From contig NZ_BBYM01000029.1 of the NCBI RefSeq assembly GCF_001570405.1, positions 1 to 64,000 of the forward strand: 64,000 bases of DNA, given 5' to 3'. The notes beneath the pieces are model-generated. The model was not told the DNA's origin. It did not search any database and saw only the letters and a program-made list of their open reading frames with translations. A program made the translations under genes and the position numbers. Every line of letters starts with the position of its first letter. The stretch's first letter is position 1. Origin of the DNA: Microtetraspora niveoalba. GTDB taxonomy: Bacteria; Actinomycetota; Actinomycetes; Streptosporangiales; Streptosporangiaceae. Positions 27,451 to 36,547 of the stretch are shown here, in pieces.

Positions 27451-28581
27451 ATGATCGATCCGCGTTCGTCCGGTGAGGCCGCCCCCGGAGACCAGGTGAA
27501 CACCGAAGAGCCCCCAAGTGCGCACGCTTCCGGGCCGACGGGGGCGGCCCCCGTTGATGCGGCTGTCGCGGACGCGGCCGCTCCCCGGCGTGAGGCGGCG
27601 GGGGCGCCACGCCGGAAGGCACGGCGGCGGTGGGTCGGCGTCCTGGTGTGGGCGTCGGTCGTGCCCTTCGCGGCGTGGGCCGCGCTCCGGCTGGTCCCCC
27701 GAGACGTGCACTTCGAGTGGATCCGCGCGGTGGCCTTCACTCCCTACGTCGCGCTCACCGCGGCGGCCGTCCCGCTGCTCGCGCTGCTGTCCCGCAGGTG
27801 GACCGCCCTCGCCGTGAGCATGGTCGTCGCCGCGACCCTCGCCGCCTGCGTGCTGCCCCGCGCGGTGGAGGGGGGCAACCCTCCGGCCGGCGGCCCACGG
27901 CTGCGGGTCCTGTCCGCCAACCTCAAGATGGGAGCGGTGCCGCCGGGCGAGCTGGTCGCCCTCGTACGGGAGCTGCGTCCCGACGTGCTGACCCTGCAGG
28001 AGCTCACCCCCTCGGCAGTCAAGGGGCTGCGCGCGGCCGGGCTCGGCACGCTGCTGCCGTACGAGGTGGACCTGGCGGAGCCGGGCGCGCACGGGTCGGG
28101 GATATACAGCCGCCACCCGGTCGCTCCCGAACCGCCCATCCCCTCCGGGATGTTCCGGCAGGGGGCGGCGACGGTCAGCGTGCCGGGCGCGCCGCCGGTC
28201 TCCGTCGTCTCGGTGCATCCGTGCGCGCCGCGGTACGCCGAACGCGCGGGCTGCTGGGCGGAGGGGCTGGCCGCGCTGCCCCTGCCCGGCGGCGGCCCGG
28301 TCCGGATCCTCGCCGGCGACTTCAACGCGACGCTGGATCACGCGCGGATGCGACGGCTGCTCGACGCCGGATATCGGGACGCCGCGGCCACGACCGGGAA
28401 CGGTCTCACCGCCACCTGGCCGTACGAGCCGTGGCACTTCAACGGGTGGGGCATCCCCCCGGTCACGCTGGACCACATCCTGGTCGATCCGGGTGTGGCG
28501 GCCCGGTCCTTCGACGTCCGCGGGCTCGCCCGCACCGATCACCGGGCGGTGTTCGCCGAGCTCACGCTCCCCGGGCTGTGA
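27451..28581 (+). CDS. Membrane endonuclease/exonuclease/phosphatase-family protein
   Basis: The 376-residue protein has a disordered N-terminus, about three hydrophobic segments (residues about 65-145) and a C-terminal EEP domain with LSANLKMG, QELTPS, GDFNAT and TDHRAVFAEL, the metal-binding and catalytic motifs of the fold. The domain would face outside. Substrates in this family include nucleic acids and phospholipids; none can be chosen. The last codons are part of the first copy of the 48-bp tandem repeat. No strong ribosome binding site was seen, so the start is tentative. Confidence 0.8.
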   Translation: MIDPRSSGEAAPGDQVNTEEPPSAHASGPTGAAPVDAAVADAAAPRREAAGAPRRKARRRWVGVLVWASVVPFAAWAALRLVPRDVHFEWIRAVAFTPYVALTAAAVPLLALLSRRWTALAVSMVVAATLAACVLPRAVEGGNPPAGGPRLRVLSANLKMGAVPPGELVALVRELRPDVLTLQELTPSAVKGLRAAGLGTLLPYEVDLAEPGAHGSGIYSRHPVAPEPPIPSGMFRQGAATVSVPGAPPVSVVSVHPCAPRYAERAGCWAEGLAALPLPGGGPVRILAGDFNATLDHARMRRLLDAGYRDAAATTGNGLTATWPYEPWHFNGWGIPPVTLDHILVDPGVAARSFDVRGLARTDHRAVFAELTLPGL

Positions 28582-28834
28582 GCCGGCCGGGCGCAAGATG
28601 TGCCCGCACTCACGCTCCCCGCGCCGTGAGCGGGCCGGGCGCAAGATGTGCCCGCACTCACGCTCCCCGCGCCGTGAGCGGGCCGGGCGCAAGATGTGCC
28701 CGCACTCACGCTCCCCGCGCCGTGAGCCGGCCGGGCGCAAGATGTGCCCGCACTCACGCTCCCCGCGCCGTGAGCCGGCCGGGCGCAAGATGTGCCCGCA
28801 CTCACGCTCCCCGCGCTGTGAGCCGGCCGGGCGC
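28561..28834. repeat. 48-bp tandem repeat, 5 full copies plus a partial
   Basis: Copies begin at 28561, 28609, 28657, 28705, 28753 and 28801; the last is cut after 34 bases. Differences are limited to single bases (GGGCTG/GCGCCG, CCGG/CGGG). Each unit can fold as GTGAG-x-CGGGC-(9-base loop)-GCCCG-x-CTCAC. The array spans the whole gap between two convergent genes and contributes the last codons of each, so it may serve as a series of bidirectional terminators. The unit length is a multiple of three, which keeps false reading frames open through it. Confidence 0.9.
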
Positions 28835-31964: not shown

Positions 31965-33554
31965 GTGGAGAAGCCGCTACTTCCGGACGATCCGCGCGAG
32001 ATAGGCGGATACGTACTGGAGGCACGACTCGGCGCGGGGGGCCAGGGAGTCGTCTACCTGGGCCGGGCGTCCGACGGCACGGAGGTCGCGGTCAAGGTCC
32101 TGCACCGGGAGTGGGCCGACGGCGAGACCCGCGGACGACTCGTCCGCGAGATCAGCGCCGCGCGACGGGTGGCGCCCTTCTGCGTCGCGCAGGTCCTCGA
32201 CGCCGACGTGGACGCCGACCTTCCCTACATCGTCAGCGAGTACGTCGAGGGGCCCTCGCTCCAGCAGGCCGGGCCCCGGTCGGGGTCGGCGCTGCACAGG
32301 CTGGCGGTCGCGACCGCGACCGCCCTGGCGGCCGTCCACGAGGCCGGGGTCGTGCATCGTGATTTCAAGCCCGCCAACGTCCTGCTCGGGTCGGACGGCC
32401 CCCGGGTCATCGACTTCGGGATCGCCCGGCACATGGACGCGACCACGAAGAGCGGCGGCCTGGTGGGCACCCCCGCGTACATGTCCCCGGAGCAGATCTC
32501 CGGAGCGCGGGCCACGCCGGCGAGCGACGTGTTCGCGTGGGGCTGCGTGATCGTGTTCGCCGCCACCGGGCGGCCGCCGTTCGGCGACGACAGCGTGCCC
32601 GCGGTGATCAACCGCGTCATGAGCCGCGAGCCCGACCTCGGTGACCTCGCCGAGCCGCTCCGGTCGGTCGTCGCGGACGCGCTGTGCAAGGACCCCGCGC
32701 TACGGCCGTCGATCCTCGACGTCCAGATGCGGTTGCTCGGCCGATCGGCCGCCGCCGGCGAACCCGCCCCGGCGCCGCCGTCCCCGCGATCACCGGTGCC
32801 GCCGGCGGGGCCGCCCGCCGCACGGGCCGATGCCCCGCCGGAGCCCGGCGCGGGTCACGGGGAACGCGGTGAGGGCAGTGCCACCGCCCCTCCCCCCGGC
32901 GTCCGCGACACCGCGGCGCGCGTCGGGGCGCCGACCCAGCCCGGCCGGTACGGCTCACGCCACCGGAGCGCCCTGCTCGCCGGAACGGGAGCGGCGACCC
33001 TGGCCGTCGCGGTGGCGGCGGGCGTGCTGCTGTGGCAGGGCTCCGGGAGTGGGGAGTCCGGCGATCCCACGGGCGGCGCGCGGGGAACGGCCGCACTCGG
33101 GACCACCGGGCCGGAGGTACTCGTCGCGACCACCTCGGCGGAGCCGTCCGCGTCCACCGCGGCGTCCCCGTCCCCGGTGGCCTCCCCCACGCCCGGGTCC
33201 GGTTCCGCGACCCGATTCCCGGCGGGGTACGCGGGAGTGTGGCGCGGTCGCGTCGACTACGACCCCGGCGCGCACGACCGGCTGGTGGTCACCATCGAGA
33301 AGGGCGGAAGGACGGTCACCGAGCAGTTCCTGGACTACCGCTGCACGGGGACGTCCCGGCTCGCCGAGATCACCGACGCCTCCGTCCGCCTCAAGCGGGT
33401 GAGCATGCGCGGCAACTGCGTACGCAACGGCGAGATCTATCTCACGCTCAACGAGGACGGCACGCTCGGCTTCGAATACTCAGGGCACGGCGAGAACGAG
33501 TACACGAAGGACCAGCCGTTCTTCATGCACGCGACGCTCACCCGCGACCGCTGA
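31965..33554 (+). CDS. Membrane Ser/Thr protein kinase (PknB type)
   Basis: The 529-residue protein has a complete Hanks-type kinase domain: LGAGGQGVVYLG, VAVK with Lys44, HRDFKPANVLL with Asp133, DFGIA and GTPAYMSPEQ. A Pro/Ala linker, one membrane helix (about 336-357), a Ser/Ala/Pro stalk and an extracellular domain of about 110 residues follow; the last has a CRGTS/CVRNG Cys pair. No PASTA repeats are present. The GTG start is preceded by GGGGAGGGG. It probably senses an external signal through the C-terminal domain, which I do not recognise. Confidence 0.88.
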   Translation: MEKPLLPDDPREIGGYVLEARLGAGGQGVVYLGRASDGTEVAVKVLHREWADGETRGRLVREISAARRVAPFCVAQVLDADVDADLPYIVSEYVEGPSLQQAGPRSGSALHRLAVATATALAAVHEAGVVHRDFKPANVLLGSDGPRVIDFGIARHMDATTKSGGLVGTPAYMSPEQISGARATPASDVFAWGCVIVFAATGRPPFGDDSVPAVINRVMSREPDLGDLAEPLRSVVADALCKDPALRPSILDVQMRLLGRSAAAGEPAPAPPSPRSPVPPAGPPAARADAPPEPGAGHGERGEGSATAPPPGVRDTAARVGAPTQPGRYGSRHRSALLAGTGAATLAVAVAAGVLLWQGSGSGESGDPTGGARGTAALGTTGPEVLVATTSAEPSASTAASPSPVASPTPGSGSATRFPAGYAGVWRGRVDYDPGAHDRLVVTIEKGGRTVTEQFLDYRCTGTSRLAEITDASVRLKRVSMRGNCVRNGEIYLTLNEDGTLGFEYSGHGENEYTKDQPFFMHATLTRDR

Positions 33555-33599
33555 CGCGGTGTCCGGCGACGCTCACCCGTGACCGCGGACGTGGGGTCC

Positions 33600-33795
33600 G
33601 GCGACGCTCTGACGTAGCCCCCGCGCGGTTCGCCCGGGCGACGGCACGCGCGTCCGGGGCGACCGGGAGCAGCTTCTCCGTGACCATCCGGCCGAGGGCG
33701 TAGTTGTCCTTGCCGCCGAGGAGGTAGTCGTACACCCGCGCCGAACTCGGCGCGGAGGTGTCGATCCCATCCGGAACACGCTCCAGCTCCGACAT
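33600..33795 (-). pseudogene. N-terminal remnant of a SAM methyltransferase (PF04672 type)
   Basis: The first 57 residues read DGIDTSAPSSARVYDYLLGGKDNYALGR and VAPDARAVARANRA, the standard opening of the large actinobacterial methyltransferase family formerly DUF574. Homology stops there and the frame runs into Arg-rich out-of-frame sequence. The remaining 200 or so residues, including the SAM-binding motifs, are absent. It is a truncated remnant converging on the kinase gene. Confidence 0.8.
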
Positions 33796-34297
33796 CTCCG
33801 CCTCCGCGAATGCCCCTATATCAGGCCATTCGTGATCTTAGTGACGGCAGTGGGGGTGGTACAGGCATCGCCGTGAAGCCTCCGAAAGCCCGTCCCCTTT
33901 AGAGATCGATCACCGCCTTTACCGGGCGATGACTGACTTTCCGAGTTAACGCGCGTGACAGGCTATTCCACTCGCCATCGAAAGGTCGGCGAACGGTCGC
34001 GGCCACTCCCGCACATCATCCCCTCCCCCCTTTCCCCGCCGTGGATCCCGGGGGCGGGTTCCGCATTCGTCGTGACACGCCGGGCAACAGGGCCGTCAGG
34101 CACGTCAAGCAGCGGCAACGCACCCGTGATCCCAAACCGGCCCGGCAGGACTCTTTGCTCACCCTAAATCGGAAGAATTCGCTTTCGGCCGCCAATTAAA
34201 AGCTGTTCAATTCGAGCGCATTTTAAATGATTTGCGGCGCTAGGGGTGATAGTGTCGCTTTTGAAAGATCACGGAAGCCGTCTGAGGGAGGCACCAA
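33796..34297 (+). other. Gene-free, lower-GC region before the small peptide gene
   Basis: About 500 bases without a convincing gene. The part from 34180 to 34270 is clearly AT-richer than the rest of the window and probably contains the promoter of the Cys-rich peptide. I could not pick a confident -35/-10 pair. Confidence 0.5.
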
Positions 34298-34435
34298 ATG
34301 AGCCTTACCAAAGTCTTTCCGACAGGGCAGTTCAGCTCCTGGGGTTGGGGCGGGGGCTGCGGAGGCGGTGGTTGCCGTCGTCGCCGCCGCTGCTGCTGCC
34401 GCCGCAGGTGCTGCTGGCGCAGATGCTGCTGGTAG
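34298..34435 (+). CDS. 45-residue Cys/Arg/Trp-rich peptide, candidate exported or leader peptide
   Basis: The frame encodes 45 residues: an N-terminal part MSLTKVFPTGQFSSWGWGGG, a Gly linker with Cys21 and Cys26, then a C-terminal part built only from Arg, Cys and Trp (R27-R31, CCC at 32-34, RRR, CC, W, RR, CC, W). In all there are 9 Cys, 10 Arg, 9 Gly and 4 Trp. GAGGGAGG ends 6 bases before the ATG, one of the best ribosome binding sites in the window. A perfect hairpin begins 21 bases after the stop, followed by an ABC exporter gene. It could be a cationic Cys-rich peptide (bacteriocin or modified peptide precursor) exported by that transporter, or a leader peptide that senses cysteine supply. 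No modifying enzyme is adjacent. I do not recognise a family. Confidence 0.7.
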   Translation: MSLTKVFPTGQFSSWGWGGGCGGGGCRRRRRCCCRRRCCWRRCCW

Positions 34436-34456
34436 GCCCTGGCTGATCTGAAGAAA

Positions 34457-34487
34457 GAGAGCCGGCGGGTTTTTCCCGCCGGCTCTC
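34457..34487 (+). terminator. Perfect 13-bp hairpin between peptide and exporter genes
   Basis: GAGAGCCGGCGGG pairs with CCCGCCGGCTCTC around a TTTTT loop. No U-tract follows, as is common in high-GC actinomycetes. It would limit transcription into the exporter gene, giving more peptide than transporter mRNA, or act as a regulated attenuator. Confidence 0.75.
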
Positions 34488-34513
34488 GGCCATCGCAGAG
34501 GCAGGTATCTCAC

Positions 34514-36547
34514 GTGGAACCGAACCCATCCTCCGACGAGGAATACGCGCCGCACGCCGACTCCGAGCCTTCGGCCTCCCCCACACCGGCGCCGGCCTCA
34601 CGATCCCGGGCGGCGACGGGACGGCGTGCGGCGATCACCACACCTGACAGGGACACGACCGGAACGGCCGACGCCACACCGCCGGACGCCGCGTCAACGG
34701 ACGCCGTGGAGGACGCACCCACGATCACCGCGCCGATCGTCTCGATCCGCACCACGCTGCGGGAGTTCTGGCCGCAGACCCGCGGCGTCCGCTGGTTGTT
34801 CGCCGCGGGCGTGGTGGCCGCCGTCCTCGCCTCCGTCTGCGAGGTCGGGGTGATCGGCCTGTTCGGGCTCATCACCGACGAGGTCCTGGCCAGCGGGAAA
34901 CTCGGCTCCTTCTGGGCCCCGGCGGGCGCGTGGATCGGCGTCGCCGCGCTGGCCGGTCTGCTGTCCTTCTCCAGCGCGTACGCGACGGCGCTCGCGGGGG
35001 AACGGTTCCTGCTGCGGCTGCGCGACAGGGTGTTCTCCCACCTCCAGACGCTCACCCCCGACTACTTCGAGAACCGCCGCCTGGGCGACCTGATGGCCCG
35101 CCTCACCGACGACATCGAGGCGATCGAGGAGCTCGTCGGCTCCGGCCTGGTGCGGATCATCACCACCGCCGCGGGGGCGGTGCTCTTCTCCGGAGCGGCG
35201 TTCTTCATCCGCTGGGATCTCGCGCTGGTGACCTTCGCGATGGTCCCGCTGTTCCTGCTGGTCTCCAAGGGGTTCACGGCGAGGCTGCGCAACGCCTCCG
35301 CCCGCGAGCGGTCGAGCAACGGCGCGATGAACAGCGTCATCGAGGAGAGCCTGGCCAACCAGTCCCTGGTCCAGGCGTACAACCGCCAGGAGGCCGAGGC
35401 GGCGCGACTGCACGAGGAGGGCCGCAGGTGGCTCCTCGCCAACGTGGCGCAGGCCCGGCTGTCCGCCCTTTACGGCCCGGCCGCCCAGATCGTGGAGACG
35501 CTCTGCCTGCTTGTGATCATCGGTGTGGGCGCGTGGGAGATCGCCTCCGGCCGGCTCACCATCGGCGGCCTGCTCGCCTTCGCCGCGTACCTGGCCTATC
35601 TGTATCCGACGTTCCAGGGGCTCGGGGAGCTGGCGCTCAACGTGTCCTCGGCGGCGGCGGGGTCGGACCGGGTGATCGAGGTGCTGCGCGCGAGGCCCGC
35701 GGTGACCGACCCGGATCCCGGCACCTCCGGCCCCGCTCCCGGCGAAGAGGCGAACGACGGCCCCGCACCGGCGGGGACGTCCCGGATGACGGCCGGAGCC
35801 GGTACGGCGACCGGTGACGTCGTCGTCCTCGGCCCGCACGGGCGCGCCCGGATCGAGTTCGACGACGTCGCGTTCACCTATCCGGGCCGGACCACGCCGA
35901 CGCTGACCGGTCTCACCTTCACCGCCGCCCCGGGCGAGCTCCTCGTGTGCACGGGACCGAGCGGCGCGGGCAAGACGACCATCGCCAAACTGCTGCTCCG
36001 GTTCTACGACCCCACCGAGGGACGCGTCCTCCTCGACGGCGCGGACATCCGCGACATGCCGCGCAGATCCCTGCGCGAGAACATCACCATCCTCCAGCAG
36101 GAGAACCTGCTGTTCTCGGGGACCGTACGGGACAACATCGCGTACGGGCGTCCGGACGCCACCCTGGACGAGATCGTCCGGGCCGCCGTCACCGCCGAGG
36201 CGGACGACTTCATCCGGACGCTGCCCGAGGGGTACGACACCCCGATCGGCCAGCGGGGGCGGCTTCTCTCGGGAGGGCAGCGCCAGCGGATCGCGATCGC
36301 CCGCGCCGTGCTGCGCGACGCCCCCGTGCTGATCCTCGACGAACCGATGACCGGGCTGGACCCGGAGACGGCGGCGCGGATCATGGAGCTCCTCCGGCGG
36401 CTCATGGACGGGCGGACGACCATCCTGATCACGCATGATCTGCGGCACGTGCCCGCGCCGAGCCGGAACATCGTGCTGGAGCCGGCCCACCGGCCGTTCG
36501 CGGTGGACGGCCCCTCGCTGGACGCCGGCCCGGTCGTCCTGTCCTGA
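34514..36547 (+). CDS. ABC exporter, fused membrane and ATPase domains
   Basis: The 677-residue half-transporter has a disordered N-terminus of about 75 residues, six membrane segments (about 90-390) and an ATPase domain with Walker A GPSGAGKTT near 481-489, LLSGGQRQR near 583 and Walker B VLILDEPMTGLD. A Pro/Gly-rich insertion of about 45 residues precedes the ATPase. There is no C39 peptidase domain. It resembles MsbA/multidrug-type exporters. The GTG start lies 26 bases after the hairpin that follows the Cys-rich peptide, so that peptide is a natural candidate cargo or regulator. Confidence 0.85.
   Translation: MEPNPSSDEEYAPHADSEPSASPTPAPASRSRAATGRRAAITTPDRDTTGTADATPPDAASTDAVEDAPTITAPIVSIRTTLREFWPQTRGVRWLFAAGVVAAVLASVCEVGVIGLFGLITDEVLASGKLGSFWAPAGAWIGVAALAGLLSFSSAYATALAGERFLLRLRDRVFSHLQTLTPDYFENRRLGDLMARLTDDIEAIEELVGSGLVRIITTAAGAVLFSGAAFFIRWDLALVTFAMVPLFLLVSKGFTARLRNASARERSSNGAMNSVIEESLANQSLVQAYNRQEAEAARLHEEGRRWLLANVAQARLSALYGPAAQIVETLCLLVIIGVGAWEIASGRLTIGGLLAFAAYLAYLYPTFQGLGELALNVSSAAAGSDRVIEVLRARPAVTDPDPGTSGPAPGEEANDGPAPAGTSRMTAGAGTATGDVVVLGPHGRARIEFDDVAFTYPGRTTPTLTGLTFTAAPGELLVCTGPSGAGKTTIAKLLLRFYDPTEGRVLLDGADIRDMPRRSLRENITILQQENLLFSGTVRDNIAYGRPDATLDEIVRAAVTAEADDFIRTLPEGYDTPIGQRGRLLSGGQRQRIAIARAVLRDAPVLILDEPMTGLDPETAARIMELLRRLMDGRTTILITHDLRHVPAPSRNIVLEPAHRPFAVDGPSLDAGPVVLS

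Follow-up and report, generated by a model that had tools for sequence, protein, structure and literature searches.

What is made from a 45-codon gene whose last 19 codons specify solely arginine, cysteine and tryptophan, and why does the gene for an ATP-binding cassette (ABC) exporter follow it? The question arises from a 64,000-nucleotide stretch of the Microtetraspora niveoalba genome (contig NZ_BBYM01000029.1; hereafter the window), in which an earlier note had singled out this gene pair. The peptide gene, an open reading frame (ORF) at 34298..34435 on the + strand, encodes MSLTKVFPTGQFSSWGWGGGCGGGGCRRRRRCCCRRRCCWRRCCW, which consists of an N-terminal part (MSLTKVFPTG), the linker QFSSWGWGGGCGGGGC and a 19-residue tail with exactly the composition described. 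The strong ribosome binding site (RBS) reported for it is present as GAGGGAGG at 34284..34291 (+), six bases 5' of the ATG, and is similar in relatives. The exporter gene begins with GTG and occupies 34514..36547 on the same strand (677 aa). Based on comparative sequence analysis, we consider it reasonably probable that the two genes form a module in which an unmodified peptide is exported by its own transporter and acts on membranes or envelope polymers.

The peptide gene is not a chance open frame, because the frame, its RBS and the exporter recur in all four genomes of the genus examined, each of which carries the peptide, and far beyond. The window exporter is 94% identical over 310 compared columns to that of M. 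malaysiensis, and in the six neighbourhoods compared first an exporter with 67-85% identity follows the peptide. In G012, the sole predicted gene apart from the pair that matched the window was a methyltransferase (50% over 44 residues). A search with a peptide profile gave matches in 15 of 341 genomes of the family at E<=0.01; 11 were judged real, and those in G050, G055, G174 and G317 were taken as chance matches in composition. A search of relatives at E<=1 (97 of 120 genomes) returned mostly composition noise. Because the peptide is too variable for profile searches, the exporter was chosen as search bait. It was detected in 91 of 338 family genomes at E<=1e-120 and, at E<=1e-60, in 24 of 394 genomes of the class and 15 of 296 genomes of the phylum, i.e., it is a minority gene in the wider samples.

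Upstream of the exporter, 66 of 70 family loci carry an ORF whose tail is rich in R, W, C, G or H, and the remaining four have a K/R/P-rich ORF in the equivalent position. These loci were taken from the listed exporter matches (30 plus 40) and represent 68 distinct genes, two being counted twice; many overlap with a second, named set of 80 loci. The named set comprises the best 80 of 94 relatives, selected by two conserved exporter patterns, and spans 12 genera: Microtetraspora, Nonomuraea, Streptosporangium, Planotetraspora, Spongiactinospora, Sinosporangium, Thermocatellispora, Thermoactinospora, Actinomadura, Actinoallomurus, Actinoplanes and Blastococcus. An objective filter, which required an ATG, an RBS, a length of 25-80 aa, at least 68% of the last 25 residues contributed by the four commonest ones and R+K+H of at least 20%, was passed upstream of the exporter in 73 of the 80 named loci and in 20 of 25 class loci (36-48% exporter identity), compared with 16 of 249 control genes from the same named loci. 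The filter counts any passing ORF and not solely the curated one; the named loci that it missed (L142, L164, L167, L170, L177, L183, and L196) have curated peptides that lie beyond these limits on one count or another.

A looser, partly manual selection with eleven hand-set starts assigned a peptide to all 80 named loci and to 21 of the 25 class loci; L209, whose peptide gene starts with GTG, is a further case. Among the named loci, hand-picking was needed for L192 and L194, the starts of L120 and L185 were reset, and the L196 candidate is weak. Ten more loci, none of them in the window's class, came from the phylum search, and nine of these have upstream peptides with Arg runs, e.g., MAKFSKMSPAQVSSRDGSNSGGGSRRRRRRRRRRRRRRNT. 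The earlier note had held that an exporter regularly occurring without the peptide would speak against a link; with curated candidates in 80 of 80 named, 22 of 25 class and 9 of 10 phylum loci, the exporter is seldom without one. Among 17 other ABC exporter genes of the M. niveoalba genome, the filter gave one match, an ordinary Ser/Arg/Pro ORF that resembles a chance hit. No plasmid-borne copies of the window peptide were found.

Scripted calls detected the exporter family in 78 of the 80 named loci. No other neighbouring family was widely shared among these loci, the broadest being present in 12 loci of five genera and the most numerous in 19 loci, all from Nonomuraea (families were counted, not identified individually). 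Because no gene family other than the exporter is widely shared, a dedicated modifying enzyme, protease or immunity protein adjoining the pair appears unlikely. A modifying enzyme beside the precursor, which would define a ribosomally synthesized and post-translationally modified peptide (RiPP), was not found in the 80 loci, a result that covers neighbours and not genes elsewhere. The lack of such an enzyme beside the window's pair extends to relatives, in which no maturation gene is widely common to the surroundings of the pair. From the earlier comparison of the precursor-hairpin-transporter order with bacteriocin and modified-peptide loci, the pairing of peptide and exporter stands and the modified peptide is left unsupported.

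The 101 unique peptides have a median length of 40 aa and a median net charge (R+K-D-E) of +10. Arginine and lysine make up 12% of the first 10 residues versus 33% of the rest, and a proline is found at residue 6-9 in 63 of the 101 peptides compared with 22.4 after shuffling. The predicted peptide is bipartite, with a mostly uncharged start that often contains hydrophobic-x-Pro and a basic tail that varies by lineage (R/W/C/G, K/P/R, or poly-Arg). The ratio of non-synonymous to synonymous differences (pN/pS) in the N-terminal codons is 0.08-0.71 in eight groups; these values are uncorrected pairwise sums, grouping by N-terminus lowers pN somewhat, and the smallest groups hold three sequences. 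By this measure the N-terminal part is under purifying selection, and the reading frame is conserved in relatives, where the earlier note would have taken parity of the two kinds of change as evidence against a gene.

In the tails, composition is retained among relatives while residue order is scrambled. In 63 unique R/W/C/G-type peptides, the final 20 codons include in total 4 AGY serine codons and 83 AGR arginine codons; the composition is therefore selected as amino acids and is not a DNA repeat. Tryptophan is the final residue in 51 of these 63 peptides. Tail type clusters on the exporter tree, with 11 changes versus 32.0 in shuffles, none of 200 shuffles being as low; near-copies contribute to this clustering. 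Cysteine and tryptophan are confined to one part of the family, cysteine being a local feature. Most Actinomadura members are rich in K/P/R, the tails found outside the class are poly-Arg, and K/P/R or poly-Arg peptides without cysteine occupy the same position before the exporter in other lineages. Richness in Cys, Arg and Trp, put forward as characteristic of the peptide, is thus no hallmark of the family, and the conserved cysteines that would mark a metallothionein-like or Cys-sensing peptide were not found across it.

At least six loci (L188, L200, L220, L224, L259, and L263) carry two peptide genes before one exporter; these tandem copies were noticed in passing and not searched for systematically. 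L188 has two near-identical complete units in tandem, each consisting of a promoter-like stretch, RBS, ORF and terminator with a T-run, whereas the other five pairs have diverged. The two upstream peptides of L224 are rich in D, W, Y, H or C, both start with MRF and end with CDDW, and the nearer one is strongly acidic.

The peptide gene is flanked by two further signals. A promoter-like block, GGTGATAGTGTCGCTTTT, lies at 34245..34262 (+) and contains the extended -10 pattern TGnTAnnGT, conserved among relatives. Of 66 unique upstream regions, 46 have this pattern 44-68 nt 5' of the ATG (1.5 after shuffling); the stretch between peptide and exporter lacks it in all 66 loci. Across genera, conservation of the block (34244-34262) covers ~20 nt, much more than a -10 hexamer would. 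As a possible part of a regulon, the strict pattern was found once in the M. niveoalba genome, at this site, and in none of five others; the control read backwards was found twice, so this test says little. Downstream, the 13-bp hairpin that had been reported between the two genes proved to be perfect and GC-rich (34457..34487, +), with the loop TTTTT and a folding energy of -29.7 kcal/mol; it lies 21 nt past the stop and is terminator-like, without a U-tract. When the 130 nt behind the stop were compared in 104 loci, the most stable hairpin began at a median of 12 nt past the stop and had a median energy of -30 kcal/mol, and a hairpin of -20 kcal/mol or lower is present in 103 of the 104 loci versus 27 of 208 shuffled stretches. 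T-runs are weak (at least four T in eight positions in 19/104 loci). A known RNA element was considered and rejected, the only match being sub-threshold and antisense, on the opposite strand (E 0.068).

The exporter combines a transmembrane domain, PF00664 (ABC_membrane; 34805..35602, +; 166.6 bits), and an ATP-binding domain, PF00005 (ABC_tran; 35903..36349, +; 114.8 bits), in one chain and is thus of the MsbA/TAP (ABCB-like) type, to which its fold matches also point. No Pfam match to a C39 peptidase domain was found, which agrees with the earlier statement that a peptidase domain is missing and sets the protein apart from peptidase-containing ABC transporters (PCATs). The best matches of the predicted fold are TM287/288, TmrAB and MsbA, with BmrCD at rank 34; the structure model is of moderate quality (mean pLDDT 74.3, pTM 0.58) and was used for helix positions and fold alone. 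Two family-specific acidic residues, encoded by codons 34841-34843 and 35495-35497 (+), map to the first and fifth long helices (predicted helices 8-42 and 203-259). Acidic residues occupy these positions in 96% and 91% of 102 family members versus 13% and 0% of 15 paralogs from the M. niveoalba genome, and the same comparison revealed six further acidic and six basic family-specific positions. Acidic residues in the helices would suit a basic cargo but prove nothing.

These features are consistent with a mechanism in which one promoter would drive the small peptide gene and the hairpin just past its stop would yield much peptide mRNA and, on what we infer to be a shared transcript, less exporter mRNA. 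The short, mostly uncharged N-terminal segment, in most peptides with hydrophobic-x-Pro near residue 6-9, is the probable recognition element for the exporter, which would pump the unmodified peptide outward. Outside the cell, the polycationic tail, here made of Arg, Trp and Cys, would bind anionic membranes or envelope polymers. The most likely role is antimicrobial-like, with the exporter possibly also protecting the producer; the sequence cannot tell killing of competitors from coating of the producer itself. On a broader scale, it is a serious possibility, which we put forward tentatively, that actinobacteria of more than one class possess an export system for cargo defined by composition, in which a conserved N-terminal tag carries an interchangeable tail (R/W/C/G, K/P/R, R/Y/F, or poly-Arg) that may be swapped or scrambled between lineages and would still be exported and work.

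Several observations weigh against an exported cationic peptide. Some peptides are not basic (R+K-D-E of -9 in L224, -1 in L160 and 0 in L221), which purely cationic action does not explain, and the odd cysteine number in 43 of 63 R/W/C/G-type peptides is contrary to full intramolecular pairing. No candidate peptide was found in the class loci L207, L216 and L219 and the phylum locus L266, and the candidate in L196 is weak. Neither an immunity gene nor a protease accompanies the pair, no such family being widely shared in the 80 loci. The exporter clade has six family-specific basic residues in addition to its eight acidic ones, and first-helix acidic residues also occur outside the peptide exporters. 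Finally, a leader-peptide attenuator would show the same order of ORF, hairpin and exporter.

An exported structural peptide shares the export step with the module proposed here and differs in end use alone. The tail would then serve as a sticky, coacervating or cross-linking coat of hyphae or spores, held together by Arg-aromatic contacts and disulphides, and would not be antimicrobial. The retained composition with scrambled order would fit such a coat, as would the combination of Arg, aromatic residues and Gly, the RGG-like and Cys-rich forms, and the odd cysteine numbers. Sec-type proteins with a similar tail point in the same direction: 11 of 338 family genomes encode proteins in which a tail rich in R/W/C/G or H/W/N comes after an apparent Sec signal (Sec-type signals, like N-terminal motifs, were assessed by eye), and one member matches PF07172 (glycine-rich proteins) with 19.3 bits, below the cut-off of 30, which is the sole Pfam or NCBIfam match at E<=1 among the 11 peptides compared. 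However, K/P/R and poly-Arg members mostly lack aromatic stickers, and we regard the structural role as possible though somewhat unlikely. In 6 of the 13 loci inspected, the Sec-type protein and the exporter are encoded tail-to-tail; such proteins are also found in G008, G366, G372 and G135, without an exporter match at E<=1e-120. In L225-L237, from ten genomes of group g6 and one of g49, their mature part is rich in C, R, W and G, with some N, D and H; G008 and G366 carry two distinct subtypes.

Alternatively, the ORF could be a ribosome-sensing leader, in which stalling on runs of Arg, Trp, Cys or Pro under antibiotic or a shortage of charged tRNA would permit read-through into a drug exporter. 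PMC4191407 describes such a case in Bacillus subtilis, where antibiotics induce the exporter by way of the bmrB ORF, which contains a terminator and an antiterminator, and where small ORF, terminator and the ABC exporter BmrCD lie in one transcription unit, in the order seen here. Every tail type is plausibly slow to translate, the hairpin is near-universal and close to the stop, and BmrCD is among the fold matches of our exporter. In bmrB, however, terminator and antiterminator are located within the coding region (PMC4191407), whereas here the hairpin lies past the stop, no antiterminator signal was detected, some loci have tandem copies and tail composition is constrained. The ORF paired with the 5' arm of the hairpin, the one geometry covered, no better than its synonymous shuffles did (mean z +0.10; 6 of 104 loci below -1.65), so that of the attenuating hairpin proposed earlier the terminator-like element remains, without antiterminator pairing. 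The model is further weakened by the loci with two peptide genes, among them L188, where each copy has its own promoter-like stretch and terminator, by the similar tail behind a Sec-type signal, and by tail amino acids that vary with lineage while the N-terminus is conserved. Codon usage can be read both ways. Tail codons favour CGT and GGT over CGG and GGG, and CGT accounts for 20% of Arg codons and TGT for 17% of Cys codons in tails versus 5% and 6% in exporter genes; enrichment of CGT and TGT could reflect rarer codons, but that of CGT and GGT fits high expression too. We conclude that the leader model is weakened and unlikely to apply.

A basic peptide that stays inside the cell, binding nucleic acids or modulating the exporter, and is merely co-transcribed with it, would be in line with the K/A/P-rich members, which resemble histone-tail-like peptides, and with the lack of a visible Sec-type signal in the exporter-linked set; it leaves the steady pairing with one exporter, the tandem copies and the Sec-type versions of the tail unexplained and is improbable. 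That there is no gene product at all, the tail being a DNA repeat with G at the second codon position that is open by chance, is hardly conceivable: C, R, W and G all have NGN codons and short imperfect repeats lie at 34382-34431 inside the peptide gene, but the composition cannot stem from such a repeat given the serine and arginine codon counts, K, P, H, Y and F are used in other lineages, and RBS, N-terminus and promoter motif are conserved.

How does the proposed export module compare with known systems? Leaderless and double-glycine (class II) bacteriocins also consist of a small basic peptide beside an ABC exporter. In contrast to these, the loci described here have no double-glycine leader, C39 domain, widely shared immunity gene or fixed tail sequence. 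N-termini such as MSLTKVFP, MANTQ, MSFKKIAP, MPLKKILP and MAKFSKMSP contain no GG by eye, and the mid-peptide Gly runs of R/W/C/G members are not conserved elsewhere in the family. Proline-rich, Arg/Trp-rich and poly-Arg cationic antimicrobial peptides have compositions like those of the K/P/R, R/W and poly-Arg tails; the resemblance is one of composition and charge, not of demonstrated homology. TmrAB/TAP, TM287/288 and MsbA share fold and domain order with the window exporter, which differs from them in its family-specific charged positions, which include acidic residues in two long helices, and in its dedicated upstream peptide gene. A defensin fold requires a fixed cysteine pattern. Actifensins are actinobacterial (Actinomyces) defensin-like bacteriocins, and the paper on them contains the term 'ABC transporter' (PMC6989792). 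Unlike in actifensin, the cysteine number here varies from 0 upwards, is odd in 43/63 peptides and zero in K/P/R members, and the residue order is scrambled.

No Pfam or NCBIfam model matched the window peptide or ten other members above cut-off, in keeping with the earlier remark that the peptide belongs to no known family, and no description of such peptides was found in the open-access papers searched, also for leader peptides, a scope that leaves out most subscription papers. Small peptides paired with ABC exporters are already known; a composition-defined cargo behind a short conserved tag is, as far as our searches go, a new form of such a pair. None of the Pfam and NCBIfam models applied covers this family, whose pairing with a transporter extends to at least 12 named genera and to loci outside the class. 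If exported, its members would open up a new supply of Arg/Trp/Cys, Pro-rich and poly-Arg peptides that are secreted naturally and, with no adjoining modifying enzyme, should be easy to produce and assay; they could also show how ABC exporters handle highly charged, scrambled cargo. If they were leaders instead, they would constitute a regulatory mechanism that is widespread among exporters for which no drug is known.

The surroundings of the pair show some further features. As noted earlier, the peptide gene sits in a pocket of lower GC content: the 300-base windows between 33650 and 34549 have values of 0.58-0.63, the remaining windows of the profile 0.68-0.84. A truncated S-adenosyl methyltransferase (PF04672, 85 aa) is encoded at 33538-33795 (-). 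In relatives, methyltransferase ORFs adjoining the same kinase have ~266 aa in L033, L034 and L035 and 154 aa in L032. Further upstream, a 48-bp tandem repeat (28561-28834; 5.7 copies, 97% matches) lies inside long overlapping open frames.

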